From Natrinema mahii (GTDB lineage: Archaea > Halobacteriota > Halobacteria > Halobacteriales > Natrialbaceae), in contig JHUT02000013.1 of NCBI GenBank assembly GCA_000690595.2, forward strand, positions 1-64,000: a DNA stretch of 64,000 bases, given 5' to 3'. Position 1 is the first letter of the stretch. Every line of letters starts with the position of its first letter. This document shows, in pieces, positions 26,893-62,436 of the stretch. Position numbers and translations under genes: made by a program. Under the pieces are notes generated by a model. The model saw only the letters and a program-made list of their open reading frames with translations. It did no database searches and was not told the origin of the DNA.

Positions 26893-26933
26893 CCGCCCAG
26901 TTCGGTTTATGTGGTGCCAGATGGGTGCGCACC

Positions 26934-39825: not shown

Positions 39826-40010
39826 TCAGCCGTGCCGTTTTTTGAAGAACTCTTGTTGATCTTCCACACATAGCCATTCGTCTCCTGGCCCGCGTACTGC
39901 GTCGCGTTCGAACGCCTGATCTTCAGCTGAATTCCATGTATAGAAGAAGCTGGCAGAAACAGGCATCGACTCGAAGAAGACCTCTCGCCGCGTTTCAACT
40001 AACGGACCTA
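39826..40010 (-). pseudogene. C-terminal gene fragment, unidentified
   Basis: A minus-strand frame reads VETRREVFFESMPVSASFFY and then WNSAEDQAFERDAVRGPGDE, WLCVEDQQEFFKKRHG to TGA at 39826-39828. It is strongly coding in character but has no start, so it is probably the tail of a broken gene. Confidence 0.35.
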
Positions 40011-40016
40011 CTACCG

Positions 40017-40256
40017 CTACAGTTCGACCTGATCGATGAACTCGACAGTGTCTTCGAGAACCGATTCGACCGCTTCGCGTTCATCGGGATTGGTCTGCAG
40101 CGTGTCGAGGTAGCCGTAGTCGTGCGCCAGGTTGTTCCGATACTCCACGACCGTTTTCAGAGTGCCCTGATACTGGTCGAACAGGTCGAGGACAAACGCC
40201 ATGTGCCGGTACCGGCCAAGCCCGTCATTGCCGTACAGATCTTCGAACTGGTCCAT
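40017..40256 (-). CDS. Small HEPN-like protein or remnant
   Basis: The 79-residue frame begins MDQFEDLYGNDGLGRYRHMA and contains FVLDLFDQYQGTLKTVVEYR, then RNNLAHDYG, an R-x4-H arrangement as in HEPN ribonucleases. The helical pattern and the acidic end fit a HEPN core, though short. HEPN domains usually act as RNases in TA and defence systems. It is not paired with an obvious antitoxin. It could be a truncated remainder, because a gene fragment lies directly downstream. Confidence 0.45.
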   Translation of the reverse strand: MDQFEDLYGNDGLGRYRHMAFVLDLFDQYQGTLKTVVEYRNNLAHDYGYLDTLQTNPDEREAVESVLEDTVEFIDQVEL

Positions 40257-40376
40257 AGTGATGTCGTACCAGGTTCTGTTGGTAACTCTCTATCGCTCCA
40301 AAACCCACAAAATTACTGTAGCGTATTAGAGTGGATGGAAAATATTAAGCGTCGATATAGCCTAGCTGAGTGTACG

Positions 40377-41378
40377 ATGACTGAGTACGTTTCGACCACG
40401 CCGGGGCTGTATCCGCTTCCGGACTGGGCGAAAGACGACCTTTCGCATCTCAAAGGCCACCAGAAACACGACCTCATCAGCGGCGACGAGGGCGAGGAGA
40501 TCACCGCGGTCTACGAGGAGGCCCGCGACGAAGTGATCGGCGTCCAGGAAGACGCCGGCCTCGACCGCATCGTCGAAGGCCAACTGCGCTGGGACGACAT
40601 GCTCGCCCACCCGCTCGCAGTCGCTGACGCCGTCGAAACGCGCGGGATCGTCCGCTACTACGACAACAACAACTTCTATCGCGAGCCCGTCGTCACCGAC
40701 GACCTCGCGGCCACCGGTGACATCGCCTCGGAACTCGAGGCGGCGGCCGACCTGACCGACGGCACCCTTCAGGCCGTCCTCCCCGGCCCGTACTCGCTTG
40801 CCGACCTCGCGACCGACGAACACTACGGTGACGAAGCCGACTTCCTCGCTGCGATCGCTGACTTCCTCGCCGACGAGGCCGACGCCTTCCACGATGTCGA
40901 GACGCTATTCTTGCTCGAGCCCTCGCTGGTCGAGAACGCACCCGCAGACGGCCACGACGAACGCGCGAGCGAAGCGATCGATCAGGTCGCCGGCGCGGTC
41001 GACGCCGACGTCGTCGTCCACCCCTACTGGGGCGCACTCGAGGAGAAGGTCTACGCCCATCTGCTCGACGCCGACATCGACGCCGTCGGCTTCGACTTCG
41101 TCTCGAATCAGGACGACAACCTCTACAACATCCAGGAGTACGGCGCAACCGACGATATCGCACTCGGGCTCGCTGACGGCCAGAACACCCTCGTCGAAGA
41201 CCCCGAAGCGATCCGCGACCGCGTCGAGTGGGTCGAGGGACAGCTGCCGACGGCTGACTTCGAGACAGTCTACCTGACAACGAACACGGAGACGTTCTAC
41301 CTGCCATACGCAAAGTACGTCGAGAAACTCGAGGTCCTTGCGGAAGCCGCAGACCTCGCGGAGGTGACCCCAGCATGA
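40377..41378 (+). CDS. MetE-like methionine synthase N-terminal-type subunit
   Basis: The 333-residue protein starts MTEYVSTTPGLYPLPDWAKD and belongs to the UROD/MetE-like barrel fold: DRIVEGQLRWDDMLAHPLAV, PGPYSLADLATDE, LFLLEPSLVEN and DIDAVGFDFVSNQDD. It lacks the clear zinc-ligand Cys residues of the downstream gene, so it is probably the non-catalytic or substrate-binding partner. Haloarchaea often carry the two methionine-synthase genes adjacent, as here with a 4-base overlap. GC content and codon use are higher than around it, in keeping with a core, well-expressed gene. Product: methionine from homocysteine. Confidence 0.85.
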   Translation: MTEYVSTTPGLYPLPDWAKDDLSHLKGHQKHDLISGDEGEEITAVYEEARDEVIGVQEDAGLDRIVEGQLRWDDMLAHPLAVADAVETRGIVRYYDNNNFYREPVVTDDLAATGDIASELEAAADLTDGTLQAVLPGPYSLADLATDEHYGDEADFLAAIADFLADEADAFHDVETLFLLEPSLVENAPADGHDERASEAIDQVAGAVDADVVVHPYWGALEEKVYAHLLDADIDAVGFDFVSNQDDNLYNIQEYGATDDIALGLADGQNTLVEDPEAIRDRVEWVEGQLPTADFETVYLTTNTETFYLPYAKYVEKLEVLAEAADLAEVTPA

Positions 41379-42445
41379 GCGAGAACAAAGATCAATTCCG
41401 ACCCGAGGACCACGAGAACGACCACTTCCTGCTGACGAGCGTCGTCGGCTCCTACCCCAAACCCAAGTGGCTCAACCGCGCGAAAGAGCTCTACGAGGAC
41501 GACGAGGCCGACTTCGACGAGGACAACTGGCAGGAAGCGAAAGACGACGCCGCCCGCGTCATCACGAACGAACACGAACGCGCCGGCCTCGATACCGTCG
41601 TCGACGGCGAGATGCGACGCAACGAGATGGTCGAGTTCTTCGCCCACCGGATCGACGGCTACGAGTTCAACGGCCCCGTCAAGGTGTGGGGACACAACTA
41701 CTTCGACAAGCCCTCCGTCGTCAGCGAAGTCGAGTACGACGAAAGCTGGCTCGTCGACGAGTACAAGTACACTGCAAGCGCTACGAGCCGCCCCGTGAAG
41801 GTCCCGATCACTGGCCCATACACGCTCGCAAGCTGGGCGTTCAACGAAGCCTACGAGGACGATGCGGACCTCGCCTACGCCCTCGCCGACCTCGTCAACG
41901 AGGAGATCGAAAAACTCGTCGACGCCGGTGCCCGCTACATCCAGATCGACGAGCCCGCGCTCGCGACCACGCCCGACGACCACGCTATCGTCGGCGAAGC
42001 CCTCGAGCGCATCGTCGCCGACATCCCCGAGGAAGTCCGTATCGGCCTCCACGTCTGTTACGGTGACTACTCCCGGATCTACCCCGAAATCCTCGAGTTC
42101 CCCGTCGACGAGTTCGACCTCGAACTCGCCAACGGCGACTACGAGCAACTCGACGTCTTCAAAGATCCCGAGTTCACCGCCGATCTCGCACTCGGCGTCT
42201 GTGACGTCCACGTCGCCGAGGTCGAATCGGTCGAGCAGATGGAAGCAAACATCAAGAAAGGCCTCGAGATCGTCCCGCCGGAACAGCTGGTCGTCTCGCC
42301 GGACTGTGGCCTGAAGCTGCTGCCCCGTGAGGTCGCCTACGGCAAGATGGAGAACATGGTGCAGGCGGCCCGCAACGTTGAGGCAGACCTCGACGCGGGG
42401 AACATCGACATCGAGCGCGAGACGCCGACGCCCGCCGACGACTAA
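41375..42445 (+). CDS. metE: Cobalamin-independent methionine synthase, MetE catalytic-domain type
   Basis: The 356-residue protein is the single-domain archaeal MetE form: VVGSYPKPKWLNRAKELYED at the start, VVDGEMRRNEMVEFFAHRID, VPITGPYTLASWAF, ARYIQIDEPALATTPDD, RIGLHVCYGDYS and LVVSPDCGLKLLPREVAYGK. The His and Cys in LHVCYGDY and the Cys in SPDCGLK are the expected zinc ligands for binding homocysteine. It transfers the methyl group to make methionine, without cobalamin. It is translationally coupled to the upstream paralogue. GC-rich sequence with strong CTCGAC/GAC-type codons marks it as a core gene, unusual in this accessory setting. Confidence 0.9.
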   Translation: MSENKDQFRPEDHENDHFLLTSVVGSYPKPKWLNRAKELYEDDEADFDEDNWQEAKDDAARVITNEHERAGLDTVVDGEMRRNEMVEFFAHRIDGYEFNGPVKVWGHNYFDKPSVVSEVEYDESWLVDEYKYTASATSRPVKVPITGPYTLASWAFNEAYEDDADLAYALADLVNEEIEKLVDAGARYIQIDEPALATTPDDHAIVGEALERIVADIPEEVRIGLHVCYGDYSRIYPEILEFPVDEFDLELANGDYEQLDVFKDPEFTADLALGVCDVHVAEVESVEQMEANIKKGLEIVPPEQLVVSPDCGLKLLPREVAYGKMENMVQAARNVEADLDAGNIDIERETPTPADD

Positions 42446-43105: not shown

Positions 43106-43333
43106 ATGACTCAGAAAATAATTGGACAGAACACCGGCCATTCGGGCCGAGTAAACTTGTCCGGGCCTGAACTCGAGAAGTTCGATGCGGAGGTCGGGGA
43201 CGCAATCAAAGTCGATATTGCTGAGTCGAAAAAGATCGCCAAGGCAATTATTGATAACAGTTCGAAGAGTGAATTCGTAATTGTGTCTAAACCCGGAAGT
43301 AATTCATCAACGACAGAGGGAATCGATGAGTAG
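43106..43333 (+). CDS. AbrB-like small protein, first gene of the defence operon
   Basis: The 75-residue protein reads MTQKIIGQNTGHSGRVNLSG, then ELEKFDAEVGDAIKVDIAES, matching the swapped-hairpin AbrB/SpoVT pattern of small DNA-binding antitoxin or transition-state proteins. Its 3' end overlaps the DUF499 gene by eight bases, so both are in one operon. A TATA-like TTATAAC lies about 36 bases upstream. It probably regulates the operon. A plus-strand gene start at 43106 directly after a dead transposase may also indicate that this island was inserted here. Confidence 0.7.
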   Translation: MTQKIIGQNTGHSGRVNLSGPELEKFDAEVGDAIKVDIAESKKIAKAIIDNSSKSEFVIVSKPGSNSSTTEGIDE

Positions 43334-46300
43334 CGAATACCCCTCTCTTTTCAAGAGCTGTCAGCCGCGGGATGACGTCTTAGACGGCTCGCTTCAGGAG
43401 GAACAGTTCGCTGCAAAGCTCTCGACCGTCGTCCATAACCCTGATAAGGCAGCACCGGTCTACCGAGATCCCGATTCGTTCTACGATATGACGTATCCCA
43501 CCGAGGGGCTCAGAACATTACTTTCCAATCTCACAGGACGTTTCGTGGCGACGACAGAGTACGACCCTGGGTCATATACTTCGAGTATCCTCTGTCTCGA
43601 CACGCGATTCGGTGGTGGGAAAACGCACGATCTCATCGCAGCCTACCATCTTGCTGAGAACCCTGCCAACATTGACAACCTCTCCCATTACCTGCTGGAC
43701 GGTGATGAGGAACTTGCAGCTAACTATCAAGATGCGGTAGCAGAAGGTATTGACATCGCGACGGGTATATTCATCGGGACAAAGGCCGACAGCAAGGATG
43801 CCCGGCACGCCGACGATGATCCGAATGCCCCGAATACTCAGACGATGTGGGGCGAACTTGCGTACCAGCTCTACGGGCTTGATGGTTACGAGTATCTCAA
43901 GGACTACGATCAAGACCGAGACGCACCCGGTGAGGGAACGCTTTCAAAGCTCTTCGCTCAATACGACCAGCCGGCTCTCATCCTGATCGACGAGATCGCC
44001 GACTATATGAATAAGGCCGCGGGCACACCCGTCGGCGATAAGACGCTCGCCGACCAGACGCTTTCGTTCATGATGGCGCTCCTCGAGGCGGCTGCCGAAT
44101 CAGAGCATGTGACGGTCGTCTACTCCATCGCAGATACCGCCTTCGGCGAACAGGCTGACCGAGTTCGTGACGGTGTCCGTGATCACATTGAGGAAGTCAA
44201 CGAAATTGGCCGTCGGCAGCATAAGACGGTCACACCGACCGACGAAAACGAAATCGGACAGGTCCTCCAGCACCGTCTCTTTACGGAGGTTCCTGACGAG
44301 GCCGCACGCGAGGCCGCTGACGCATACTTCCGATTTTATGACCAAGAAGGCCGCCAGTATCCACAGGAAGCTACTGACGCCGGCTACGTGGATGTCCTCG
44401 CTCGCGAATACCCCTTCCATCCCTCACTAATCGACGCCCTCACAGACAAGATCGATACAATCCCACGGTTCCAGCGAACTCGTGACGCCCTCCGATTGCT
44501 CGCACGAGCCGTCTACTACCTCTGGAATCACCAACCCGACAGCTACGACCGCCATTGGATCCGCATTTACGACCTCACAGTCGCCGACGACGATCCTGGC
44601 GGCGGGATTCAGACAATACTTCGCGAGCGGCTGTTCGACTTCGTCGACCTCGGTCCTGCAGTTACCGCCGACATCTACGACGATGATGGCACAGCTCACG
44701 CCCAACTCGAGGATCGGAAATGGACTGAGAACGGCCTGCCACCCATCGGAACCCATCTGACAATGGCGGTCCTCTGGCACAGTCTCGCGTACGGTGAACA
44801 GGCAGCTGGCCTCACCCACGCCGATTTGAACCTCGCCATCGGCCACCCCGACCTGAACTTCGACGACTACGATGCCGCGCTCTCGGCCCTCCGGGGCGAC
44901 GATATGGACGCCGCGTGTTACTTCCTCTACGAGGAAGAGCGGATTCGGTTCAAGCAAGAACCAAACCTCATCCGAATCATCGATCAGCGGATCGAGTCTA
45001 CTCCAGAAGGGACCGCTCATTCGCGTTTCGAGAACCGTCTCACCTCGAAGGAGATCGGGGATGGCGGCTTCAAGCCAGTCGTATTCCCCGAATCGCCGGC
45101 GGACTTACCGGATACATCCGACACGCCGAAGCTTGCGGTTATGCATCCAGACACAGCTGCCGTTGAGGACGGCGGCGATACGCTGCCGAGCCGAGTGACC
45201 CAACTCTACGAGCAGCAGGCCGCAAAACACGAAGGGGAAACAGAGACACGCATCTACAAGAACTACGTTCTATTCCTCGCGCCTGACGACGATCGAATGG
45301 ATGCAGCGATCGATGAGGCGCGGCGTCTCGAAGCAATTGAAGCCCTGCTTGATAGCCCCGAGCAGAAAGCCGATCTCTCCTCTGAGCAAATCGAAGAGCT
45401 CCGGGAGCGAAGTGACGAGGCCCAATTGATGCTGGGGGAACTCGTCCGCAACGTCTATCGCCACCTCTACTACCCGGAACGGAACGGACTGACGCACATT
45501 ACCATCGGTGCGACTGAATCCAACGGCGGGACAACGCTGGTCGATGCTGTCCAGACAACGCTCGAGGATAAGATCGTAAAACGAGACGCTGGCGCACGTG
45601 GGTCCGCTCACGTCCAACAGAAGCTCTGGCAGCAGACGCAAGACGCTATGTCTACCGAAGCGCTGGTCAACCAGTACGCGAAGAAGCCGGGATTGGACTA
45701 CCTCTTCAGCACCAAACCGATTCGAGAGACTGTCTCCTCTCTCGTTAGTGACCACGGGTACGCCTATTGGGATGGCGAATCCGGGACAGCGTACTGGACC
45801 GGGACGACGGAGCCCGAGACGTGGCCACACCCTGAACCGTTCGCGGAATCCCCTGATGTTGAGACATTGATTCGGGACAGCGACGTCCAGATCGGGAGTG
45901 AGTTCGTTGTCTACCGGGACATCGACGCGCTCGTCGACGACCATCTTGATGAAATCGACCGGCCAGAACAGACGGTTGCCATCTGCGCCGAGTGTGGTTC
46001 GGAGGTTGAAAACCCAGAAGGCAGCGAACCCTACTACTGTGAGGAACACCAGTCCGACACGACGTGTAGTTCCTGCGGCAAAGAGGTCGCCAGCAAGCAG
46101 CTACTGGACGAACGAGGGCGATGCAAAGAGTGCCAGCCCGACGAGTCCTGGGAGGCGAGCAAGAAAATGATGTCTGCCTCACGGGCGTTCTCGGAAGTCC
46201 GTCGGGATGCGGAATCGAAGGCCGGAACTGACCGGACGCCGCTGCTCGAAGAAGTGACCATCCAGGTCGGCGGGGACGATCCCTTCCAGGCGGCTAAGTT

Positions 46301-46625
46301 CGTAAGTCAGCGGCCCGGATTCAAAGCCCGTGAAGACGCGGTGACGGTCCGAATGCAGTACGAGACCCGAACTGACGACGGGACGTACAGCGCGGAATTC
46401 ACCGGCTCACCAAGCCGATTCCGGGACGTGATCGACCAACCGGGCTCGTTTGGCGATGATCGAGAGACCATCCAGTTCCGGTTCCAATTCGACGAGCCTG
46501 AGCCAATCACTGACGAGGGCAAGGACCTCCTTGCTGCTCTCAATAACGACCTCGATGCAGACAATATTGACGTCCGTGTCGAGGGGAGTGGCCCGATTCG
46601 GGCGAGTTTGGAGGTGACGGTCTGA
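43326..46625 (+). CDS. DUF499-type P-loop ATPase of an Hma-like defence system
   Basis: From ATG 43326 the protein has 1099 residues. Near residue 91 it carries LDTRFGGGKTHDL, a Walker A motif, and near 216 PALILIDEIADYM, a Walker B motif. This is the pattern of DUF499 ATPases, which I know from anti-phage gene clusters. Near residues 886-940 lies a double zinc site (CAECGSEVEN, CSSCGKEV, CKECQP), an addition worth noting. A beta-rich C-terminal part follows. It overlaps the AbrB-like gene by eight bases and touches the next gene. Together with the methylase and helicase it forms the core of the island. Confidence 0.85.
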   Translation: MSSEYPSLFKSCQPRDDVLDGSLQEEQFAAKLSTVVHNPDKAAPVYRDPDSFYDMTYPTEGLRTLLSNLTGRFVATTEYDPGSYTSSILCLDTRFGGGKTHDLIAAYHLAENPANIDNLSHYLLDGDEELAANYQDAVAEGIDIATGIFIGTKADSKDARHADDDPNAPNTQTMWGELAYQLYGLDGYEYLKDYDQDRDAPGEGTLSKLFAQYDQPALILIDEIADYMNKAAGTPVGDKTLADQTLSFMMALLEAAAESEHVTVVYSIADTAFGEQADRVRDGVRDHIEEVNEIGRRQHKTVTPTDENEIGQVLQHRLFTEVPDEAAREAADAYFRFYDQEGRQYPQEATDAGYVDVLAREYPFHPSLIDALTDKIDTIPRFQRTRDALRLLARAVYYLWNHQPDSYDRHWIRIYDLTVADDDPGGGIQTILRERLFDFVDLGPAVTADIYDDDGTAHAQLEDRKWTENGLPPIGTHLTMAVLWHSLAYGEQAAGLTHADLNLAIGHPDLNFDDYDAALSALRGDDMDAACYFLYEEERIRFKQEPNLIRIIDQRIESTPEGTAHSRFENRLTSKEIGDGGFKPVVFPESPADLPDTSDTPKLAVMHPDTAAVEDGGDTLPSRVTQLYEQQAAKHEGETETRIYKNYVLFLAPDDDRMDAAIDEARRLEAIEALLDSPEQKADLSSEQIEELRERSDEAQLMLGELVRNVYRHLYYPERNGLTHITIGATESNGGTTLVDAVQTTLEDKIVKRDAGARGSAHVQQKLWQQTQDAMSTEALVNQYAKKPGLDYLFSTKPIRETVSSLVSDHGYAYWDGESGTAYWTGTTEPETWPHPEPFAESPDVETLIRDSDVQIGSEFVVYRDIDALVDDHLDEIDRPEQTVAICAECGSEVENPEGSEPYYCEEHQSDTTCSSCGKEVASKQLLDERGRCKECQPDESWEASKKMMSASRAFSEVRRDAESKAGTDRTPLLEEVTIQVGGDDPFQAAKFVSQRPGFKAREDAVTVRMQYETRTDDGTYSAEFTGSPSRFRDVIDQPGSFGDDRETIQFRFQFDEPEPITDEGKDLLAALNNDLDADNIDVRVEGSGPIRASLEVTV

Positions 46626-47266
46626 TGGCAAGTCGCGGATCGGAATTTGAGTCATCACCCGCCGAGGGAACAGAGGAAGATCGGTTGGTCCGCTATGGAA
46701 CAAGTATGTTCGGTGGCCGACCAACGTTCACGCTCGTTCGGCGAGAGACGGACAGTGGCGGCGAATGGACGCTCCACGAACTCCTCCCCCATGAGCAGGC
46801 TGAAGCCCGTCGTAATCGCTTGGAGCGGGATGGTCGCTCGCTGAGTATCACTCCAGTCGAAGACCTCATTTCGGACGTCGCCGGCGATGACCTCCTTTCC
46901 AAGCTCGACGGCTGGACATGGGATGAATGGGTTGGGGCAAAGGTCGCACGCCTTGACCCGACCCGCGTTCGTGCGCTCCAGGATGTCGTCCGGGGGGCGA
47001 TCGAGGACACGCCAGGGGAGACATCAGAAGTCCTCCGTGGCGGTGCTGGATTCGTGTTCCTACCTGAGACGGCGGGCGTTCGGCTTGCTGTTGCCTTCCG
47101 TGGCGTGAAGCCGCTCCAGCGAATCGACCGAATGCGGTCGCTGGCTCGAGGCGTTGCACGGATGAGTGATGAGGAGTGTTACTACTGGTATGCAAAGTGT
47201 CGATCCCCGTCGAGTCCGAACGGTGAAAAGGCCCTTCGAGTGTTGCTGACGGACCACATTGAGTGA
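46625..47266 (+). CDS. Small partner protein between ATPase and methylase, DUF3780-like position
   Basis: The 213-residue protein contains EEDRLVRYGTSMFGGRPTFT, LHELLPHEQAEARRNRLERD, WTWDEWVGAKVARLDPTRVR and FRGVKPLQRIDRMRSLARGV, the last ending in YYWYAKCRSPSSPNGEKALR. It occupies the slot of the anti-phage-associated DUF3780 proteins, and its arginine-rich C-terminal helix fits such a nucleic-acid-associated subunit. I am not sure of the family. It starts inside the stop of the ATPase gene (TGATG) and ends seven bases before the methylase ATG. Confidence 0.75.
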   Translation: MASRGSEFESSPAEGTEEDRLVRYGTSMFGGRPTFTLVRRETDSGGEWTLHELLPHEQAEARRNRLERDGRSLSITPVEDLISDVAGDDLLSKLDGWTWDEWVGAKVARLDPTRVRALQDVVRGAIEDTPGETSEVLRGGAGFVFLPETAGVRLAVAFRGVKPLQRIDRMRSLARGVARMSDEECYYWYAKCRSPSSPNGEKALRVLLTDHIE

Positions 47267-47273
47267 TCTAACT

Positions 47274-50162
47274 ATGAGTCAAAACCCCGAAAGTCAGGAT
47301 AGCGATTCAGAACTGAAGCGTGTCGCAATTGAGGGGACGCTTCCTCTGAAGGCAGTTGGTGTCGAGAATCTGAAGGAGGCTAACCCCTACTTTATGCCTC
47401 CTCATCGTTACCTCCATCCTTGGTTTGCTCGCCGCCCAACCCCCGCTTCTAGACTCGCTATTCTTTCGTCTGTACTCCCCCCAGAGGTGGATGCAAACAC
47501 GCTGCTTGATTGGATGCAGATCAAGCCTCGTGACAATATTGATGTCGATATTGAGGAGTACGTAGCTGAAAAGAAACGAACTGAAGATGACCGGGATGGG
47601 AACCTAGAGGACCACTACGGATATCCTCGTCCGTACACTCGGACGCCGACTTCAGATGAGAAGGCGGAGATGCACGAGTTGCTCCGGGAACATTGGGAAG
47701 GAGAGCTACCCACCGTCTTAGACCCGACTGCTGGTGGAGGCGTTATTCCGTTTGAATCTCTACGCTATGGCCTGCCGACAGCAGCGAACGAACTCAATCC
47801 CGTCCCAACTGTAATGCTCAAGGTCCTCCTTGAGTGTGCCCCCAATGTTGGTTCTCTTCAGAGCGAACTCAATCAGTGGGCCGACCGAATCAATGAGATC
47901 GCCGGGGAGGAGCTTGAACCATACTTTCCCAGTGACGGTGACAGACAGACCCCTTCACACTATGCGTGTACCTATGCGGTAGGCTGTCCGGAATGTGGCT
48001 GTGATATCCCGATAACGAAGAAGTGGTGGCTTCAGAAACAATCCTCTTCGAAAGGAGTTGCAGCACGTCCTTCTGTGTCTGAGGACGGGACCGAGATCAA
48101 GTATGAGGTTGTTAGATTGCCGGATGACGTTGAAAAGTCAGAATACAACCCTCAAGACGGACCTCATACTCGGAGTGGGGCTGAATGCCTCAATTGTGGT
48201 ATTGTAATGGAATCTGATACTATTCGAGACCGGATTCGTGATTATGAATTCGAGTATGAAATCTACGGCGTGAAATATGAGAAATCGGCCGGAGGAACCG
48301 CTTGGCGAGCGCCCATCCCAGAAGACTACGAAGCACAATCTAAAGCCGCTGATCGAATCGAATCTGACTTCGAACTTAGCTCCCTTTTGGATGTACCGCG
48401 CTATATTGGAGACGAGGATCGTGCGGGGCCGTACGGTGTCACCAAGTGGAAGGATGCTTTTACCCCAAGACAGCTAGTTACTCAATACGCGTATCTCCAA
48501 GCTTACAAGCAGTGCCAAACCGAGATCTTTGATCAGTACAATAACCAAAAAGCAGAGGCGATACTAGCAGTATTGGCGTTGGTTGCTGGGAAAACTGTAG
48601 ATCGAAATGTTCGATTTTCCCCACTGGACATTAGTAACGGTCTCCTCGGGAACGCCCTAGGTGGAAAGCACTTCACTCTCCAGTGGTCGTTTGTTGAAAA
48701 CAATCCTTCGGCAGGAAATCAGAGCTATCTGGATACTCTAGATCGAGTTAGAGACTCTTACGAAGAGATAGCTAATTATCTTCGTGATGAGGATGCAGAG
48801 GATGTCCATGTCTCACAAAGAGATGCTGCTGATCTGTCGTTTGATGCGGATTCCATTCAGGCAATTGTAATTGATCCTCCTTACTACGATAGCATCATCT
48901 ATTCGGAGATGTCTGATATGAGCTACGTCTGGCTCAAAGAATATCTCCAAGATATCTACCCAGACGTTTTTTCTGACGACCTTACGGACAAAAGCCAAGA
49001 AGCGGTCGCCAATGTGGCTGAATATGAGGAGGTTGCTACTGACTCAAAGTCCAAGTCCGAATTAGCTGCCGAGGACTATGAGAACAAGATGGCGGAGATT
49101 TTTCAGGAACTCTACCGTGTTCTTGAGCCCGGTGGCGTAATGACCGTCATGTTCACTCATAAGGAATCCAGTGCATGGGACACGCTCACGAAGTCGCTGA
49201 TTCGATCTGGATTTACCATCACCTCTACCCATCCGATTACTAGTGAAATGCCTCAGCGGACAGATACCCGAGGAGGAGGTTCAGCTGACAGTACCTTGTT
49301 GCTTACAGGGAGAAAACCGCACGACAGCAAGACGGACTCTGAGACATTACCAACCCTGTGGAGTGATGTTCGTACTGAAACCCGTGAAGTAGCGAAGGAG
49401 GCAGCCAGAGACCTGCTTGATGCTGGCCTCTCTCTGACGAAAACAGACGTCATCATTTCGGCTTTCGGACCGACATTGCAAGTCTACGCAGAGGCCTATC
49501 CTGTTGTCGATGACCAAGACAACGAGATTCCTCCCCGAAAGGCATTAGAAGAAGCACGTGAAGCCGTAACGCGAGTCCTCGTCGAGGAATATCTTGTGGG
49601 AGAGCGGCTCGGTGACTTAGATGACATTACAGAGTGGTATATTCTTTCCTGGTTAGTCCACGAATCAGACACCTTCCACTACGATGATGGCCACCAGCTG
49701 GGGCTTGGTATTGGTGTCGACATCGACAATATCAAACGCTCTACGAAAATCTGGGGGAAAAAACGCGGTGACATTCAACTGAAAACCCACGAGGATCGCG
49801 TCCAAGATATCACACTCCCACCCGAAGAAAGATCCAACCGGACGCCTGTCGACCCCGAAGCGCTGTCCTACACGATCGCCCTCGATGCGGTTCATGCCGC
49901 GATGCACATCTACAAGAAACAGGGCGAGGACATCGCGATTGATTGGCTCAAAGAACGTAACTTCGACACAGACGCTGGGTTCAAGGCAACGCTGAAAGCT
50001 CTCCTACAAGTCCTCCCCCAGAACAGTTCGGAATGGGAGGCTGCTCGCGACCTCGCCTTAGGCCGGACCCACGACGCGCTGGGTCTCGAATTCACCCCCA
50101 CAGATTTCACTGACAGCTCAGAAGAAACGCTCGAGCAGAGCGAACTCGGAGACCATATCTAA
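47274..50162 (+). CDS. DUF1156-type DNA methylase (adenine/cytosine-N) of the island
   Basis: From ATG 47274 the protein has 962 residues. Near residue 5-65 is HRYLHPWFARRPTPASRLAI, the DUF1156 opening. The cofactor motif DPTAGGGVIPFESLRYG is near residue 149 and the catalytic DPPYYD near 533, followed by SEMSDMSYVWLK. This is the amino-methyltransferase pattern. Two zinc-like pairs (CPECGCD near 238 and CLNCGIV near 305) are inserted between. Such enzymes mark host DNA in anti-phage systems. The gene up to about 49,800 is less GC-rich than its flanks, which hints at mosaic exchange. Confidence 0.9.
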   Translation: MSQNPESQDSDSELKRVAIEGTLPLKAVGVENLKEANPYFMPPHRYLHPWFARRPTPASRLAILSSVLPPEVDANTLLDWMQIKPRDNIDVDIEEYVAEKKRTEDDRDGNLEDHYGYPRPYTRTPTSDEKAEMHELLREHWEGELPTVLDPTAGGGVIPFESLRYGLPTAANELNPVPTVMLKVLLECAPNVGSLQSELNQWADRINEIAGEELEPYFPSDGDRQTPSHYACTYAVGCPECGCDIPITKKWWLQKQSSSKGVAARPSVSEDGTEIKYEVVRLPDDVEKSEYNPQDGPHTRSGAECLNCGIVMESDTIRDRIRDYEFEYEIYGVKYEKSAGGTAWRAPIPEDYEAQSKAADRIESDFELSSLLDVPRYIGDEDRAGPYGVTKWKDAFTPRQLVTQYAYLQAYKQCQTEIFDQYNNQKAEAILAVLALVAGKTVDRNVRFSPLDISNGLLGNALGGKHFTLQWSFVENNPSAGNQSYLDTLDRVRDSYEEIANYLRDEDAEDVHVSQRDAADLSFDADSIQAIVIDPPYYDSIIYSEMSDMSYVWLKEYLQDIYPDVFSDDLTDKSQEAVANVAEYEEVATDSKSKSELAAEDYENKMAEIFQELYRVLEPGGVMTVMFTHKESSAWDTLTKSLIRSGFTITSTHPITSEMPQRTDTRGGGSADSTLLLTGRKPHDSKTDSETLPTLWSDVRTETREVAKEAARDLLDAGLSLTKTDVIISAFGPTLQVYAEAYPVVDDQDNEIPPRKALEEAREAVTRVLVEEYLVGERLGDLDDITEWYILSWLVHESDTFHYDDGHQLGLGIGVDIDNIKRSTKIWGKKRGDIQLKTHEDRVQDITLPPEERSNRTPVDPEALSYTIALDAVHAAMHIYKKQGEDIAIDWLKERNFDTDAGFKATLKALLQVLPQNSSEWEAARDLALGRTHDALGLEFTPTDFTDSSEETLEQSELGDHI

Positions 50163-50180
50163 CTCGGAAAGCTTCCAGTT

Positions 50181-53100
50181 ATGACTAATTTACGTGAACG
50201 CGAGTGGCAGTCCATCTACGAGAGCAAACCCGAACAGGGTCGAGCACACTTAGTCAAAGACTTCTACGAGCCCGCACTAGAACGCAGTCAGCAATACGAT
50301 CGGATCGCAGGCTACTTCTCCAGTACAGCACTCGCGGCTGCTGCCAACGGCGTTCACGCCCTCGTAGAGAACAACGGTGAAATGCGGCTCATCGTCGGCA
50401 CCGAACTCTACGAGACAGATCGACCGGTCCTTGAGGCGCTCACCGACCGTCTCGAGGAGAACCTCGAGGATCTCGATGACGAACGCCTAGATGCGAATCT
50501 CCGAATTCTCGCACGTCTCCTCCGCAGAGGCCGTATCCATATTAAGGTCGCCTATCCACGCTCCTCCTCTCACGATTGGGAGATTTTCCACCCAAAAGTC
50601 GGACTCTTCCACGATAGCGATGGCAACACGATTTCGTTCGAGGGCAGCGTCAACGAGACTGTCGGCGGCTGGGCTCGCAACTACGAGCGGTTCAAAGTCC
50701 ACCGTTCGTGGGTTCCTGAGCAGGCAGACTACGTTGCCGGCGACGAGGAGACCTTCGAGCGGCTATGGAGTGGTGAACACCCCTTCGTCGAAGTGTATGA
50801 CCTCCCCAAGGCGATCGAAGAGGACATCATCGACTGGAAAGCTCCCGACACCGAGAGCGACCTCCAGGAAGCGATTCAGATTGCGAACGGGACAGCCCCG
50901 CCGACGGAGCTGGACAAGGCGAATATCATCCAAGATGGACCCCTCTCCCCCGGCGGGCTCGCACTCGCCGAGGAAGCGAGCACGATTACGCCGTGGCCAC
51001 ATCAACGAGTCGTCTCGGATACACTGGTCAACACCTACCCGCAGAGCTTCCTTCTGTGTGACGAGGTGGGGCTCGGGAAGACGATTGAGGCGGGTCTGAC
51101 CCTTTCTCGGCTTGGGCTCACTGGCGAGCTCGAAACCGGGCTGTTGCTGGTCCCGGCAAGCCTCCAGCAACAGTGGCAGGAAGAGCTCTGGGAGAAATTC
51201 AACATCAACGCCGTTCGCTTCGACCGGGACACAGCGGGAGATCATGTATTCCGAGACGTCCGTGGTCACGACCACTATCCACCATTGGTGGCGGACCTCG
51301 ATCTCGCCGGCGAGGCCGAGTGGGTGGAAAGCCCCATTTGGCGGTTCCTCTACGAACAGCAGTCGAACGACACCGATGCATCGTCGCCGCTGGATGGGCC
51401 GGTGATCGTCATTATGTCCTGGCACACTGCTCGTCTCGACGACCGGTGGGATCAGGTCGCTCCCTTAGACCAGGTGTCCGACAGGTCACGGAATGTCATC
51501 CCGGCGAGTTGTCGCGGCCGTGACCACGATCTGGAAGATCGCATGGGTGTTTGGGACGCCGTCATCGTCGACGAGGCACACAACGCCCGACGCGGCAGTA
51601 ATTTCTACGCTCTTCTCGAGCAGCTTCGCGACTATACGCACGCCTACTATCTCCTGACTGCCACGCCGATGCAATTGCATGCTGGCGAACTCTACGATCT
51701 GATGCAGCTGCTGGACCTTCCGGGTGGTTGGGATAACCGGGATACCTTCGTTGAGTTCTTCGAAACCCGAGACGGGCTGTCGCAGGCCCTCGACGAGGTT
51801 TTCGATGACTCCAGTTCGGAGTCTGACGAAGCGGACGCTTCCTGGAACACGCAAGCCACGCTCGATGGACTGGAATACCAAGACCGGCTTCCGATGGATC
51901 GACCATTCTCCTCAAAAGTCTTCCAGCACCTCGCAGATGAACTCGAACTCAATGTGGACGGACAAGACCGTGCCATCGCCAAAGAGCGCGTACTGACCGC
52001 GTGTCGGCTCGCACGAGCCTACGGGGACGCCTACGACGGCTATCTCGACCGCGTCGACGACGCGATGGCAGACTATGATATCGACCGCTTCGAGGCAAGC
52101 GAAGATACGAAACTCAAACGGCTCCTCTACCCCGACGACGCCGACGAATGGTTGATGGCGTCCCGCAGCGACCGGCAGGACGCACTTGATGAACTCTCCC
52201 CGGGCGGTTGGCGAGTTATCCGCGATGTTCTCGCAGAGTCTACGCCCGTCGACGCGCTCATCCACCGGAATACACGGGACACCCTCCGGAAGTACGAGGC
52301 GGTCGGTCTCCTCGACACGACCGTTCCAGACCGCAACCCCGAACAACGGAAAATCGAACTCACCGAGGAGACACGGGCGGTCTACGACCAGATCGACGAG
52401 TACACACGTGAGTTCTACAAGCGAGCCCAACAGACTGACGAAGCCCAAACACGCGCCATCGGGTTCGTGATGACCACGTACCGGCAGCGACTCACGTCGA
52501 GTGTCTATGCAATCAGTCAGAGTCTGAAACACCGACTCGAAACGCTTCGGGCGCAACGAACCGTGCTGGCCGGTCGAGAACGCGCTCGCGACCGTGACTA
52601 CGGTGATGCAGAGCAGGTCGTCCTCGAAACGCTACAAAATGCGGACCTCGAAGACGGGGACGTTCTGGATGAACTCGACGCTAGTAGCGACGACTTGGAC
52701 CTCTCTGAACTCATCCCAAGCGTGACTGAAGAGGGGAAACAGCTGATCGAGGAAGAAATCGAGGCCTTGGAGGCATTCGTCAACGACTTAGACTTGGTTG
52801 ATACAGACCCGAAGATCCAGCAGTTGTACGACGACCTCGACGAGCTGGACCGGGCTGGCCACAATCGGGTGATTGTCTTCACGCAGTACGCGGACACAAT
52901 GGACTTCATCCGGAACAGTCTCGCGGACCTTCTCGGAGCGACTATCGCGACGTATTCCGGTCGTGGCGGCGAGCTGTACGATCCTGATTCTGAAACTTGG
53001 GAGCACGTCGGGAAAGAGCGTGTGAAGCGTGAATTCTCACGTGACGATGGACAGGTCGACATCCTCGTCTGTACCGACTCCGCGAGTGAGGGGCTAAACC

Positions 53101-54131
53101 TTCAGGAGTGTGGGGCGCTCATCAACTACGACCTGCCGTGGAACCCGATGCGGGTGGAACAGCGTATCGGTCGGATTGACCGTATCGGCCAACGGTTCGA
53201 CGAGATCCGTATTCTCAACTACAGCTACGAGGATACGGTTGAGACAGATATCTATGATCGCCTTGACGACCGGATTGGCCTCTTCGAAAACGTCGTCGGT
53301 GAGATGCAACCCATACTCTCCGGCGTCAGCCAACAGATTCGGGATGCGACCTTGAATGCGGACAGCGCTGACGACCAGTCTGCGGTCGAATCAGCTGACC
53401 GTGAGTTCTCTGAAGAACTCGAAGAACGCGATCAGGGCGACCGCGTTGATGTCAGTGAGTCACTCGAGGACGTCGACGACCTCGTCGCTCAGGACGTCGT
53501 TGACGAAGCAAAACTTGATGCGTGGCAATCCTACAACCACCCGGATCTCGTCGATGTCGGCGAGGAGGAATACGAGTATCAACCGCCCTTCGAGACACCG
53601 AGTCTCCAGTCAGTGTTGGTCGATAACGACGCGCTTGCCGAGGCCGGTGTCGAATTCACCCCGGTTCACGAGATTGATTTCGAGTACGATGACGGGGACT
53701 TCGACTTTGCGGACAGTACGTATCGTCTCTCAGTAGGTGATGCACCGATTGAGGTCCCAGCCGGGGATGGGGAACAGACGATTGCACAGGCTATTGCGAC
53801 TGCTGCAGATGAAGTGGCAGTAACGTTCTCGGCTGAGTGTGCTGACGAGTTCCCATCGGTTCAGCATCTTGCGCCAGGTCATCCCCTTCTCGGGCAGCTC
53901 CTCACAGTACTGCAGGATGTGAGTGAGGATCCGTCGCGATTCCAACAGCGAATCGTGACCCGACCTGATCAAGACCAGGAGCCAGTAGTGTGTGCGTGGG
54001 GGCGGGACGGCGTGTTTACCCGGGTTACACGCGATGGGACAGTAGCTGAAAATGGACCGATGGATTCCCTTCCGACGTGGTGTGATCAATTCCTCGATAA
54101 CCGAGAGAAGTCAACAAAGCAGCCACAGTAG
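50181..54131 (+). CDS. PLD-domain SNF2-type helicase of the island
   Basis: The 1316-residue protein starts with a phospholipase-D-like domain holding HPKVGLFHDSDGNTISFEGS and NETVGGW near residue 137-165 (the HxK...GS.N pattern). The helicase core follows: CDEVGLGKTIEAGLTLSRLG near 293, IVDEAHNARRG near 462, VFTQYADTMDFIRNSL near 895, and GALINYDLPWNPMRVEQRIG with RIDRIGQ near 977-1003. This SNF2/COG0553 type helicase fused to a PLD nuclease is typical of archaeal defence clusters. The gap to the methylase is 18 bases. It probably moves along or cuts foreign DNA that lacks the host mark. Confidence 0.9.
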   Translation: MTNLREREWQSIYESKPEQGRAHLVKDFYEPALERSQQYDRIAGYFSSTALAAAANGVHALVENNGEMRLIVGTELYETDRPVLEALTDRLEENLEDLDDERLDANLRILARLLRRGRIHIKVAYPRSSSHDWEIFHPKVGLFHDSDGNTISFEGSVNETVGGWARNYERFKVHRSWVPEQADYVAGDEETFERLWSGEHPFVEVYDLPKAIEEDIIDWKAPDTESDLQEAIQIANGTAPPTELDKANIIQDGPLSPGGLALAEEASTITPWPHQRVVSDTLVNTYPQSFLLCDEVGLGKTIEAGLTLSRLGLTGELETGLLLVPASLQQQWQEELWEKFNINAVRFDRDTAGDHVFRDVRGHDHYPPLVADLDLAGEAEWVESPIWRFLYEQQSNDTDASSPLDGPVIVIMSWHTARLDDRWDQVAPLDQVSDRSRNVIPASCRGRDHDLEDRMGVWDAVIVDEAHNARRGSNFYALLEQLRDYTHAYYLLTATPMQLHAGELYDLMQLLDLPGGWDNRDTFVEFFETRDGLSQALDEVFDDSSSESDEADASWNTQATLDGLEYQDRLPMDRPFSSKVFQHLADELELNVDGQDRAIAKERVLTACRLARAYGDAYDGYLDRVDDAMADYDIDRFEASEDTKLKRLLYPDDADEWLMASRSDRQDALDELSPGGWRVIRDVLAESTPVDALIHRNTRDTLRKYEAVGLLDTTVPDRNPEQRKIELTEETRAVYDQIDEYTREFYKRAQQTDEAQTRAIGFVMTTYRQRLTSSVYAISQSLKHRLETLRAQRTVLAGRERARDRDYGDAEQVVLETLQNADLEDGDVLDELDASSDDLDLSELIPSVTEEGKQLIEEEIEALEAFVNDLDLVDTDPKIQQLYDDLDELDRAGHNRVIVFTQYADTMDFIRNSLADLLGATIATYSGRGGELYDPDSETWEHVGKERVKREFSRDDGQVDILVCTDSASEGLNLQECGALINYDLPWNPMRVEQRIGRIDRIGQRFDEIRILNYSYEDTVETDIYDRLDDRIGLFENVVGEMQPILSGVSQQIRDATLNADSADDQSAVESADREFSEELEERDQGDRVDVSESLEDVDDLVAQDVVDEAKLDAWQSYNHPDLVDVGEEEYEYQPPFETPSLQSVLVDNDALAEAGVEFTPVHEIDFEYDDGDFDFADSTYRLSVGDAPIEVPAGDGEQTIAQAIATAADEVAVTFSAECADEFPSVQHLAPGHPLLGQLLTVLQDVSEDPSRFQQRIVTRPDQDQEPVVCAWGRDGVFTRVTRDGTVAENGPMDSLPTWCDQFLDNREKSTKQPQ

Positions 54132-54174
54132 CTGGGTAGTTTTGTAAGTATGGACTTCCCAGATAAACCAATAG

Positions 54175-55326
54175 ATGCCAAACACTGCTCTCGAAGCAAA
54201 TCTCCGCGCTATCGGAGACGGTGCGAGACTGGAACAGTTAGCTGTTGACTTGCTTGGTCGAGACGGATACGACGTCGATCCAACCGGCGTGAGGGGTCCG
54301 GATGGCGGGAGGGATGCACTTCTTGAGCGTTCGGGAAAATCTGGCGTGCTCCACTGTAGCGTGACCTCGAGTAATATCGAAGAGAAGATCCGTTCAGATG
54401 CAAATTCAGCTGCTGACTATCCGGAGGAGTTCGATTTCTTCATATTTGCTACCACCACGGAAATTGCCGGGGTCAAACGGGACCGACTAGAGAACGAATT
54501 GGCGGATACGTACGGCTGGCGCGTTCACATCAAGGATTTTGCCCGATTGAGAAAAGACCTGATGGTTGTCGACAACCACGATGTCGCCCAAGAACATCTC
54601 CATGTTGACCCTCTGAATGCTCTCGACGATCCAGAACAGGATATCGACGAATTATATGAGGCTCAACTCGACCGATTACGGAATCGACAGCCACGCCACG
54701 GTGAATTAGTAGATGAAGGACCGATTGTGGCGGTTCATGTCATTCCCGTTGAGTCGGTTTCGGATCCTCCTGGAATGATCGCAACCGATCTCCCTGGCCC
54801 ACCAAAATTCCGCTCACGGTCGGCTGGTACCGAAGGTTTCGGTGATTTCGCAATTACAGCTCCGTATACGGAGCTGTCTGAAGGGAAATTTTCCGAATAC
54901 GTCTGTTTAGACGGTAATGGGTGGGTAGAAGCTGTAACAACCAAGCTGGCTATGGAGCGGAACGGGAGGCACGGGATAGCGTGGTTCATCGATAAAGAGA
55001 TCGTCTCTCTAATGGATCGGCTCCGAGAAATGTATCAGACTTCGGGCATTTATCCGCCGTTGTACGTATATATCACGATAATCGATGCAGCGAACTATCC
55101 GATTGAAAAACCACAACGAGTTGTCGGCCCAGACACCACCCGTCCGATCAGCGAGAATATCTTCCAATTGAAACGAGTGGAGATTGAAGATTGGGACTCT
55201 AATATCGCGGTGGCCCTTCGCGAACCCCTCTATCAGCTCTGGAACCGTATTGGCTGGCGAAACGGTTCGATACACTATTCGCAAAATGAGGATGGTTCTT
55301 TTGAGTGGGAGCCATATGAATCATAA
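54175..55326 (+). CDS. Mrr/restriction-endonuclease-like N-terminal domain protein, active site incomplete
   Basis: The 383-residue protein begins with an Mrr-like core: RLEQLAVDLLGRDGYDVDPT, GVRGPDGGRDALLERSGK and then GVLHCSVTSSNIEEKI. The Asp of GGRD is in place, but the usual Glu/Gln-x-Lys after the next strand is replaced by CSV, so catalysis may be lost or use other residues. The rest is a beta-rich domain and helical end. It starts 43 bases after the helicase stop on the same strand, so it belongs to the defence operon as a nuclease or recognition subunit. Confidence 0.7.
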   Translation: MPNTALEANLRAIGDGARLEQLAVDLLGRDGYDVDPTGVRGPDGGRDALLERSGKSGVLHCSVTSSNIEEKIRSDANSAADYPEEFDFFIFATTTEIAGVKRDRLENELADTYGWRVHIKDFARLRKDLMVVDNHDVAQEHLHVDPLNALDDPEQDIDELYEAQLDRLRNRQPRHGELVDEGPIVAVHVIPVESVSDPPGMIATDLPGPPKFRSRSAGTEGFGDFAITAPYTELSEGKFSEYVCLDGNGWVEAVTTKLAMERNGRHGIAWFIDKEIVSLMDRLREMYQTSGIYPPLYVYITIIDAANYPIEKPQRVVGPDTTRPISENIFQLKRVEIEDWDSNIAVALREPLYQLWNRIGWRNGSIHYSQNEDGSFEWEPYES

Positions 55327-55379
55327 ACGGGCCTGTTGAACCGCGCATCCGTACAAATTCAGCAGAAGAGAAAACGGCT

Positions 55380-56450
55380 CTATTCTGGCTGTTCTTCGTC
55401 AAAACCGAAGAGCTGTGATTTTGCGTGCGTTTCTCCTCTGATGGCTTTTTGCGCTGCTGCAACGGCATCCTGTAGATTACTGTCCCCCTTCAAATGTGAG
55501 ACCGCCTCTTCAGGAGTCGCCACACCAATTCGATACTTCGCACTGTTTACGTACGAATTGAGTGTCCGAGCCTTCATAATGGAGAATAATAGGTTCTTGC
55601 TCAGGGCTTCAAAGTCGATATCCATAATTTGCACCCCGAATCGAGAGTGAATCCCGTGGATGAGGTCGTTTCTGTACTTCCACGCTTCACGAATTACCTC
55701 TTCTTCTTTCTGGGTGAGCAGTGGCGTGATATTGTCGATTTTATTCGAGAATCCGCAGTGCATATACGACTTCTTGATTTCTTTATCGTTGCCTTGCTCC
55801 AGGTGGTATCGGTTTACTAGCTCGACGATTTCTTCGTCGACAATTGAGTACGCCACAAACAGCGGTGCGTACACCGTTTCGTAGAACTCGCCCTGTTGAA
55901 ACGTATCTGAATCGTCATTCCAGGACTCATGCCACTCTTCGATTTCACCGCTCTCCGCGAGGAGATTCAAAATCGCTGCAAACAACCTTGGTGCAATATC
56001 TGCTGGGCTGTCCCCGACTCCTCGAGCAGATGGCTCAGAATCGAGGATGGGGAGACCCATTTCGTCCTGATAGGTAACATTCAGAGTCCGCTCCATCCCC
56101 GGTGACAACCGATACACAGGGAGATATTCATCTGATCCGTATAGCGACCCCACTTTCTCCATTCCGAATTGTTCTTCTATCCGTCCGAAATTAAGCAATA
56201 TTTGAACTTTCTGTCCGTCATCGAGGGTCGGCAGCTTGGTGAGGGTAGGGATTACTTCGTCGACATTCCGATACCCAGAGCCAAGGTGTCTGTATTCCCA
56301 CCGATTCGTGCCCTCCTCGCTTGTCACATACCGTATGACGTACTCTGTCTCATCATCACAGATATCTGAATGGGGGACGCGACCGTGTCGGATACCTTCT
56401 ACGTAGCGTATATCATATCCATCATTGTCCTGTTTATACTCAATATCCAT
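55380..56450 (-). CDS. HEPN-like protein, convergent to the defence operon
   Basis: From ATG 56450 (MDIEYKQDNDGYDIRY) the protein has 356 residues. The N-terminal half is beta-rich. The C-terminal part carries EVIREAWKYRNDLIHGIHSR, with R-N-D-L-I-H matching the R-x4-H motif of HEPN ribonucleases, embedded in helices. Its long N-terminal domain may sense the trigger. It converges on the Mrr-like gene with 53 bases between stops. Placement next to an Hma-like operon suggests an abortive-infection companion, but it may be separate. Confidence 0.65.
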   Translation of the reverse strand: MDIEYKQDNDGYDIRYVEGIRHGRVPHSDICDDETEYVIRYVTSEEGTNRWEYRHLGSGYRNVDEVIPTLTKLPTLDDGQKVQILLNFGRIEEQFGMEKVGSLYGSDEYLPVYRLSPGMERTLNVTYQDEMGLPILDSEPSARGVGDSPADIAPRLFAAILNLLAESGEIEEWHESWNDDSDTFQQGEFYETVYAPLFVAYSIVDEEIVELVNRYHLEQGNDKEIKKSYMHCGFSNKIDNITPLLTQKEEEVIREAWKYRNDLIHGIHSRFGVQIMDIDFEALSKNLLFSIMKARTLNSYVNSAKYRIGVATPEEAVSHLKGDSNLQDAVAAAQKAIRGETHAKSQLFGFDEEQPE

Positions 56451-56644
56451 CGTACTCTGCGAATCTATTGTGTAAAAGTGATATATAAGCACCCGCTGCG
56501 TCCGTCCTGTGACCTCAGCTCTCGATAGACATCGGAAGGTTGTGTGGTGGCCGGGTTACCGTTCCAGTGCTTCTCTGAGGTCACTTCCTTCTGAATTCTA
56601 CAGAAGATGGCGATCAGCCGCCAGAAATTGATTTCTCTGGGCAG

Positions 56645-61195: not shown

Positions 61196-62419
61196 TTATG
61201 GTCTATCAATCAGGCTAAGAACATCATTAAACCGATTTTCCTCAGTCAAGACATTGACCGTAGTATCCAAATCCGTGTTCAACTCCCAGTAGTACTTTGG
61301 ACCGCCACGCGATCCACCACTGCGTTTCGCCCCTGAGACGACACCAATCATATCTAGATCATGGAGATGACTGCGAACCCGACGCATTGCGATCGAGTTC
61401 GTGTCGACATGAGATGTGATATCTGTGTACCGCGAGTACACCTCTGGTGTTGGCGCTGGCGTTTCATTCCCTGTTGCCAACGAAGTGAGTGCTAGCAATG
61501 CCAACTGATCCTGTATTGTCAGATCACGAATGCTCTGCGCGATATTCATCTGCTCAACATGGTCCTCGGCCTTGCGGACATGCTCCTCACCGACCTGCGG
61601 TTCGTCGTTAAGAGCGGCGAACTCACCGGCCTTGTACAGATACCGAATTGCCTGCCGTGCCGATCCTAGATCTTGGGCAGCAAGCGCCGCTGCTAGTGCG
61701 ATAGCTTCCTGCGTGACAGCACTATCGACAAACGCTTTCTCTGACCGACGGTTGAGAATGCTCCGCAGTTGATCAGCATCATACGGTGGAAAGTGAATTT
61801 CGACCTCGCATAGCGAATCCTTAGCTCGAGGGTCGAGTTCCTCGTAGAACGTCATATCGTTGCTGATTCCGATCACGGAAACGTCCATATCCTCAATATG
61901 ACTGTTGTCACGCGCGCGTGGCAGCTCATAGAGAATCATATCTTTGTTTCCGATGTTGTCGACTTCATCAAGGACAATAACGACAATCCCACCAATTTCT
62001 TGAAGAGCATCGTAAAGCCGGGCGAATACTTTCCTCTTCGGATGGCCGTTCGGGTTGTCACCAGTTAATTGTTCTACAAGATCACACGCAACCTGATACG
62101 AAGAGTGATGGCCCTTACACGTTTGAAAAATAGTAGTCAAATTGATTCCGCTCCGCTCATCGACTTCCTCTTGCAGTTTCTCAAGGAGAAAACGTGCAGC
62201 TGCTGTTTTCCCCTGCCCGGGCTTACCGTACAGAAACGCGTTGTGAGGGGGTGCATCGTTGAGAACTGGAGAAAGAACCTCCAACCCAAGTCGTTTGAGT
62301 TGCTCTTCTCGTTCTGGAAGATCATTTGGTGTGTAACTCTCTTTCAGGATACGTTCGCTTTCGAAGATCTCTGATCGGTCCTGAAAGTACTCGGTCATGA
62401 TAGGAGACAACGTACTCAT
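61196..62419 (-). CDS. Orc1/Cdc6-family replication initiator
   Basis: From ATG 62419 the protein has 407 residues; a later ATG at 62398 (MTEYFQDRSEIF) is possible. It holds the AAA+ motifs AFLYGKPGQGKTAAARFLLE (Walker A near 65-72) and IVVIVLDEVDNIGN (Walker B near 150). The sensor region and RQAIRYLYKAGEFA follow, then a C-terminal winged helix (IAMRRVRSHLHDLDMIGVVS). This matches the haloarchaeal Orc1/Cdc6 initiators. It lies directly beside an origin with inverted ORB-like repeats and thus should start replication of this replicon. Confidence 0.9.
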   Translation of the reverse strand: MSTLSPIMTEYFQDRSEIFESERILKESYTPNDLPEREEQLKRLGLEVLSPVLNDAPPHNAFLYGKPGQGKTAAARFLLEKLQEEVDERSGINLTTIFQTCKGHHSSYQVACDLVEQLTGDNPNGHPKRKVFARLYDALQEIGGIVVIVLDEVDNIGNKDMILYELPRARDNSHIEDMDVSVIGISNDMTFYEELDPRAKDSLCEVEIHFPPYDADQLRSILNRRSEKAFVDSAVTQEAIALAAALAAQDLGSARQAIRYLYKAGEFAALNDEPQVGEEHVRKAEDHVEQMNIAQSIRDLTIQDQLALLALTSLATGNETPAPTPEVYSRYTDITSHVDTNSIAMRRVRSHLHDLDMIGVVSGAKRSGGSRGGPKYYWELNTDLDTTVNVLTEENRFNDVLSLIDRP

Positions 62420-62436
62420 TATACAAATAACCGTAG

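Follow-up and report, generated by a model that had tools for sequence, protein, structure and literature searches.

A four-gene, DUF7680-bearing variant of BREX-related/Hma defence operons in haloarchaea and bacteria, with an exchanged methylase gene and optional cargo

How many of the genes packed around a methylase, a helicase and an ATPase belong to one defence machine, and how many are passengers beside it? The question is raised by a tight operon of the haloarchaeon Natrinema mahii, which lies in a stretch of 64,000 nucleotides that we call the window (contig JHUT02000013.1 of assembly GCA_000690595.2, positions 1-64,000 of the forward strand). Six genes follow one another on the plus strand at intervals of -8 to +44 nucleotides: an opener, a DUF499 ATPase, a DUF7680 protein, a DUF1156-type N6 methylase, an HKD-SNF2 helicase and an Mrr-like gene, to which a HEPN-like gene is convergent. 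The original prediction saw here a helicase-methylase-ATPase (Hma) operon of three core parts, extended by AbrB-like, Mrr-like and HEPN-like members. We find that the core has four genes, not three: the DUF499 ATPase, DUF7680, the DUF1156/N6 methylase and the HKD(PLD)-SNF2 helicase. The operon is real and widely distributed, and it represents a variant, as yet without a name, of the known defence systems Hma and those related to bacteriophage exclusion (BREX). Probably, it is an antiviral system akin to restriction-modification, a variant marked by DUF7680 among the BREX-related (BR)/Hma systems centred on DUF499, and works as we propose below. Its features are these:

43106-43333, plus strand: opener, 75 amino acids, possible DNA-binding regulator (AbrB-like), overlapping the start of the ATPase
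43326-46625, plus strand: DUF499 AAA+ ATPase (HmaC / BR ATPase), from Pfam, PADLOC and motifs
46625-47266, plus strand: DUF7680 protein, 213 amino acids, fourth core subunit, from Pfam, its conserved slot, AlphaFold and hhalign
~47274-50162, plus strand: DUF1156-type N6-adenine methylase (HmaB), from Pfam, PADLOC, motifs and allele replacement
47736-48848, plus strand: hypervariable centre of the methylase, residues ~160-530, from identity comparison across near-identical operons
50181-54131, plus strand: HKD(PLD)-SNF2 helicase-nuclease, proposed effector, from Pfam and conserved HKD-like residues
54175-55326, plus strand: Mrr-like PD-(D/E)XK protein, optional cassette gene, from Mrr_cat and an Ago-associated restriction endonuclease (REase) model
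55380-56492, minus strand: HEPN-like protein, optional cassette gene, from its RNDLIH motif
54353-56494, no strand: exchangeable cassette, the remainder of mrr plus the HEPN gene, from blastn junctions

The open reading frames lie where they had first been placed, save that the HEPN-like gene runs past 56450 to end at 56492. The likely ATPase start is the ATG at 43326, which overlaps the opener stop, and within the methylase frame of 47259-50162 the likely start is the ATG at 47274; a promoter and terminator scan gave promoters no better than those of shuffled sequence. That the operon is Hma-like stands, as each of the three Hma parts is matched by its PADLOC model. The ATPase is found by Pfam DUF499 (E=7e-33) and PADLOC HmaC (6e-82), the methylase by Pfam N6_N4_Mtase (5e-6) and HmaB (1e-54), and the helicase by Pfam SNF2 (5e-14), Helicase_C (1e-17) and PLDc_2 (3e-5) and by HmaA (1e-61), with the PADLOC PLD_Helicase model scoring better (1e-68). 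A motif scan finds the catalytic motifs intact in all three proteins: Walker A (43611-43625), Walker B (43977-43994) and CxxC zinc-finger pairs (45984-46133) in the ATPase; motif I, DPTAGGG (47721-47741), and DPPY (48873-48884) in the methylase; and in the helicase HKD, HPKVGLFHD (50589-50615), GSVNE (50643-50657), Walker A (51060-51083) and DEAH (51570-51581). The locus thus unites the DUF499 ATPase, DUF1156-type N6 methylase and Swi2/Snf2 helicase that define the DUF499-centred BR/Hma systems.

The small protein between ATPase and methylase had been left outside the core, yet it matches Pfam DUF7680 (E=3e-35) and proves to be an invariant fourth core gene, holding the same slot in haloarchaea and in bacteria. 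Of the 392 genomes of the class, 65 encode a homologous methylase (E<=1e-100), and besides the window we read 64 haloarchaeal loci of ~20 kb, leaving out of the counts the more distant DUF1156 methylases of another group (L120-L134). The order ATPase-DUF7680-methylase-helicase recurs in 64 of the 65 loci (the window and 63 of 64), the exception running off its contig. DUF7680 also turns up on plasmids, in Rhodococcus, Sinorhizobium, Aminobacter and cyanobacteria. Across the 84,980 species genomes that we scanned, it was found in 173 stretches, and the 79 loci that we read among these come chiefly from Cyanobacteria, with others from Chloroflexi, Actinomycetota, Bacillota, Deltaproteobacteria and Planctomycetota. 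Where the contig reaches far enough, most bacterial loci have all four core genes, though a few cyanobacterial ones are rearranged or have intervening genes; no DUF7680 was found in viral contigs. With such recurrence in haloarchaea and in bacteria, the four-gene order stands far above chance. In a Halovenus metagenome-assembled genome and its kin (L218, L135), the haloarchaeal DUF7680 operon has a methylase that groups with bacterial ones, which suggests arrival by a separate transfer. Another haloarchaeal DUF1156 methylase/ATPase group (L121-L131) forms its own clade outside the DUF7680 system and adjoins McrB/McrC-like genes and an MTaX1-HNH protein.

Could the operon nonetheless be a classic Hma (Type-1 BR) system that has merely been decorated in haloarchaea, with DUF7680 as an accessory of little importance? 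The match of the PADLOC Hma models to helicase, methylase and DUF499 ATPase is the chief likeness to those systems (PMC8565338, PMC12839542), and the profile scores of ATPase and methylase are nearer to Type-1 loci than to DUF3780 loci. However, a classic locus has three genes only, a helicase without HKD, an N-terminal TUDOR and often a C-terminal REase or a HEPN-fused ATPase, and the Type-1 loci that we examined run helicase-methylase-ATPase, often with a Swt1/HEPN ATPase. Here the order differs, the ATPase bears no fused HEPN or Swt1, a fourth core gene keeps its slot across haloarchaea and several bacterial phyla, and the helicase has an N-terminal HKD, whose residues (HxK..D, GSxNE) are conserved in DUF7680- and DUF3780-type helicases and had no counterpart in the two Type-1 helicases that we aligned. 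As Type-1 loci also form their own strongly supported clade in the methylase, ATPase and helicase trees, we hold this explanation to be quite unlikely.

The order, which had been taken for that of Hma, is instead that of a sister operon, DUF499-DUF3780-DUF1156-PLD, described in 2026 as a Type-2 BREX-related system (PMC12839542); its bacterial members, annotated as 'anti-phage-associated', have DUF3780 where DUF7680 stands here. Both share gene order, DUF499 ATPase, DUF1156 methylase, an N-terminal HKD on the SNF2 helicase (here PLDc_2 3e-5, HxK..D and GSxNE) and a small alpha+beta protein between ATPase and methylase. The AlphaFold models of DUF7680 (predicted local distance difference test, pLDDT, 84.9; predicted template modelling score 0.80) and DUF3780 (pLDDT 83.5) have the same order of elements, beta-beta-beta-alpha-beta and then a C-terminal helical bundle. 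Profile comparisons by hhalign that were thin or heavy in haloarchaea gave weak or non-significant results (P=0.0025-0.06), whilst deeper profiles of bacterial DUF7680 and DUF3780 are collinear over 141 columns (P=4e-4, with 0 of 150 column shuffles scoring as high). From these modest profile statistics and the matching predicted secondary structure, DUF7680 appears to be a remote homologue of DUF3780. A fold search with the DUF7680 model against PDB and BFVD returned nothing at E<=0.001, and PDB sequence searches with DUF7680 and the HEPN-like, Mrr-like and ATPase proteins gave no meaningful match. A LAGLIDADG likeness of the model was rejected, with a template modelling score near 0.2.

Is this, then, an ordinary Type-2 system (Rakesh and Krishnan 2026), with DUF7680 simply the archaeal DUF3780 already counted in that survey? 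The shared order, helicase and slot, and the remote homology, speak for it, and the survey does list archaeal Type-2 members. Yet there is no standalone DUF3780 protein here: the small protein matches DUF7680, has no DUF3780 match in Pfam and is related to it remotely at best, and the core proteins are a separate lineage that falls short of the NCBIfam equivalog cut-offs. In each of the three trees, DUF3780-type loci form one group with 100% support and none is nested in the DUF7680 group, whose own grouping has 97% support in the methylase tree and 33% in the ATPase tree, and is unresolved in the helicase tree. PMC12839542 never names DUF7680, nor does any other paper found in the literature searched. 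A search with the DUF3780 Pfam model in the window's genome and 59 relatives of the phylum was silent, though its controls were silent too, which makes it uninformative on absence. We therefore regard an ordinary Type-2 assignment as unlikely. More distant systems share less. As in BREX (PglX/BrxC/PglZ), there is a large AAA+ ATPase and, by inference, a methylase acting as specificity factor, but no PglZ, BrxL, BrxA or BrxB match among the operon proteins, and so no PglZ gene as in Type-3 BR or BREX. The helicase resembles DrmD of the defence island system associated with restriction-modification (DISARM; PADLOC E=7e-62) and, more weakly, DrmA, but no other DISARM part is matched in the operon, which lacks the set of DrmA, DrmB and DISARM methylase.

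What distinguishes near-identical operons from one another is the methylase. The 54 complete haloarchaeal operons yield 143 pairs that are 88% or more identical in the ATPase and 80% or more in the helicase, and in 69 of them identity across the methylase centre (residues 160-530) is less than 60%. Over pairs with nearly identical ATPases (median 94%) and helicases (median 95%), the centre has a median identity of 61% (minimum 42%). All six ATPase clusters of at least three loci contain between two and six methylase alleles. The clearest pair, L068 and L071, has ATPases 98%, DUF7680 proteins 100% and helicases 98% identical, with methylase centres only 46% identical, and in its DNA ~97% identity gives way to 53-68% where the methylase gene starts and is back at 97% where that gene ends. 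The same drop, confined to the methylase, separates the window from L072, though both bear the mrr/HEPN cassette. Halobellus limi (NZ_CP031314) and Haloplanus rallus (NZ_CP034344) form another natural swap pair: the helicases of both are ~95% identical to that of the window, their methylases 94% and 75%. This pattern is allele replacement of the methylase gene: in swapped operons, ATPase, DUF7680 and helicase stay 93-98% identical, central methylase regions are ~46% identical, and the DNA breakpoints lie at the ends of the gene. Because the other three subunits stay constant whilst the methylase is replaced whole, the methylase should carry the specificity for marking as well as for restricting, and one gene replacement would retarget the system. 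The variable region spans motif I to DPPY, including CxxC pairs at 47985-47996 and 48186-48197; a recognition insert has been placed between these two motifs (PMC12839542), and the hypervariable centre is the expected target-recognition insert. In BREX, the PglX methylase alone determines specificity for methylation and defence (PMC11341690), and divergence within pglX has been noted in related BREX islands (PMC9009780).

We posit that the methylase gene probably sets the DNA target. By analogy, the best reading is that ATPase, DUF7680 and helicase are blind to specificity, that the target comes from the methylase and that the HKD helicase is the nuclease. The antiviral role and each biochemical step are inferred, as follows. 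The N6 methylase would recognise a DNA motif via the insert between motif I and DPPY and mark host DNA, and the DUF499 ATPase would assemble on DNA together with it. At an unmethylated motif, the ATPase would load the HKD-SNF2 helicase, which would translocate along and cut foreign DNA. DUF7680 may couple the modification state to the effector as a reader or adaptor, the least certain step of the mechanism, while the Mrr-like and HEPN-like proteins might be swappable backup effectors outside the machine. We put at an even chance the broader claim that DUF7680 systems are a separate pan-prokaryotic BREX-related subtype, with the methylase as a plug-in cassette for specificity, exchanged whole in haloarchaea so as to switch self-mark and restricted target together, and with the other three subunits blind to specificity.

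Several points weigh against this picture. The methylase's DUF1156 match (7e-5) scores 23.3, slightly under the Pfam cut-off of 24, and the NCBIfam 'anti-phage-associated' equivalogs match far below their cut-offs (203 against 1200, 120 against 1000 and 337 against 1100 bits), which was also the first hint that the operon is a divergent variant. The homology of DUF7680 to DUF3780 has modest profile statistics behind it, and we found no experiment on a DUF7680-type system in the literature searched. The N- and C-terminal ends of the methylase diverge too in L068 and L071 (~90% and ~83% identity), so that the whole gene moves, not the recognition domain alone, and other methylase-specific functions could drive exchange. 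Finally, in the published BR model the ATPase takes part in recognising the invader (PMC12839542).

Where does this leave the extra genes? The comparison of neighbourhoods, which was to reveal whether core operons regularly lack them, kept the four genes of the core and went against the extension, the extras being often missing: homologues of the opener occur in 30 of 65 loci (the window and 29 of 64), a full-length Mrr-like gene in five (the window and four) and the HEPN-like gene in three (the window and two). In nine other loci an unrelated frame of 46-64 amino acids with weak similarity to VapB antitoxins fills the opener slot, and a few have degenerate remnants there. The opener itself has no Pfam or PDB match, and at E<=1 the MazE/AbrB model misses it while picking up 15 other proteins of the genome; from its hhalign comparison with these (P=0.0015, 0 of 100 column shuffles as high), it may tentatively be called AbrB-like. 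The Mrr-like protein matches Mrr_cat below the cut-off (0.017) and the PADLOC Ago-associated REase model at 3e-7. Its gene ends after the first 20-67 codons in several more loci, including near-identical operons, and relatives are common elsewhere (49 of 392 class genomes). The HEPN-like protein, so named for its RNDLIH motif alone (residues 274-279), has no Pfam or PDB match and occurs in only three of the 392 genomes, the window's included, always beside a full mrr-like gene at the operon.

The borders of the cassette are sharp. By blastn, its left border, at 54353 inside the Mrr catalytic region, is common to L059, L062, L063 and L068, and on the right homology resumes at 56495-56588 in L059 and L068, where two other genes replace the block between conserved borders. 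Between methylase and helicase lies a second cargo slot, occupied in 19 of 64 loci; its genes are varied and include a superfamily 1 (SF1) helicase, a PHP-AAA protein, an HSDR_N nuclease, Nmad3 and DUF3800; in Leptolyngbya and Euhalothece it holds a VapC toxin. Since cassettes are replaced between conserved borders and slot contents vary, the extra genes are optional, exchangeable cargo and not fixed parts. One might still argue for an abortive route, in which the core is no more than a sensor and the real effectors are encoded by the Mrr-like and HEPN-like genes, considering that these nuclease-like genes adjoin the core, that the HEPN-like gene, in the genomes surveyed, always has a full mrr-like gene as its neighbour at the operon and that cargo varies in other loci. 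With full-length Mrr-like and HEPN-like genes at so few loci, and mrr cut short in several near-identical operons, this is very improbable.

Other observations concern the surroundings. Toxin-antitoxin-like genes lie in or beside related operons (L140:11084-11763, L141:7899-8551, L145:10851-11587), and HicAB adjoins the methylase in Thermus. A family of ~190 amino acids with no Pfam match flanks the operon, up- or downstream, in ten haloarchaeal loci (L062:4305-4868, L066:3951-4535, L097:16303-16866 and seven more). An Orc1/Cdc6-type replication initiator is encoded near the operon (61196-62563) and many close relatives of the operon sit on haloarchaeal plasmids; given both, the contig may be a secondary replicon. 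Just upstream, two adjacent, mutually similar genes that cluster together (39936-42445) look by eye like MetE-type methionine synthase halves. Further away, a 750-amino-acid SF1 helicase (AAA_11/AAA_12; 24640-26892) overlaps a gene for 583 amino acids (26889-28640) with no Pfam match; the pair is perhaps a separate defence module. In seven related operons a cargo helicase sits between the methylase and helicase genes; the 750-amino-acid helicase has the same Pfam domains as this one and a short DNA match to it.

To conclude, the question from which we set out has an answer: the neighbours that resemble nucleases are passengers open to exchange and do not belong to the fixed machine. DUF7680, a conserved and uncharacterised family, gains a place and a testable role, and a defence subtype common to haloarchaea and several bacterial phyla is defined. 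Which subunit sets the target was left open by the literature, since the ATPase is given a recognition role there; natural swap pairs, near-identical operons with different methylases, can show which Hma/BR subunit sets the restriction target.

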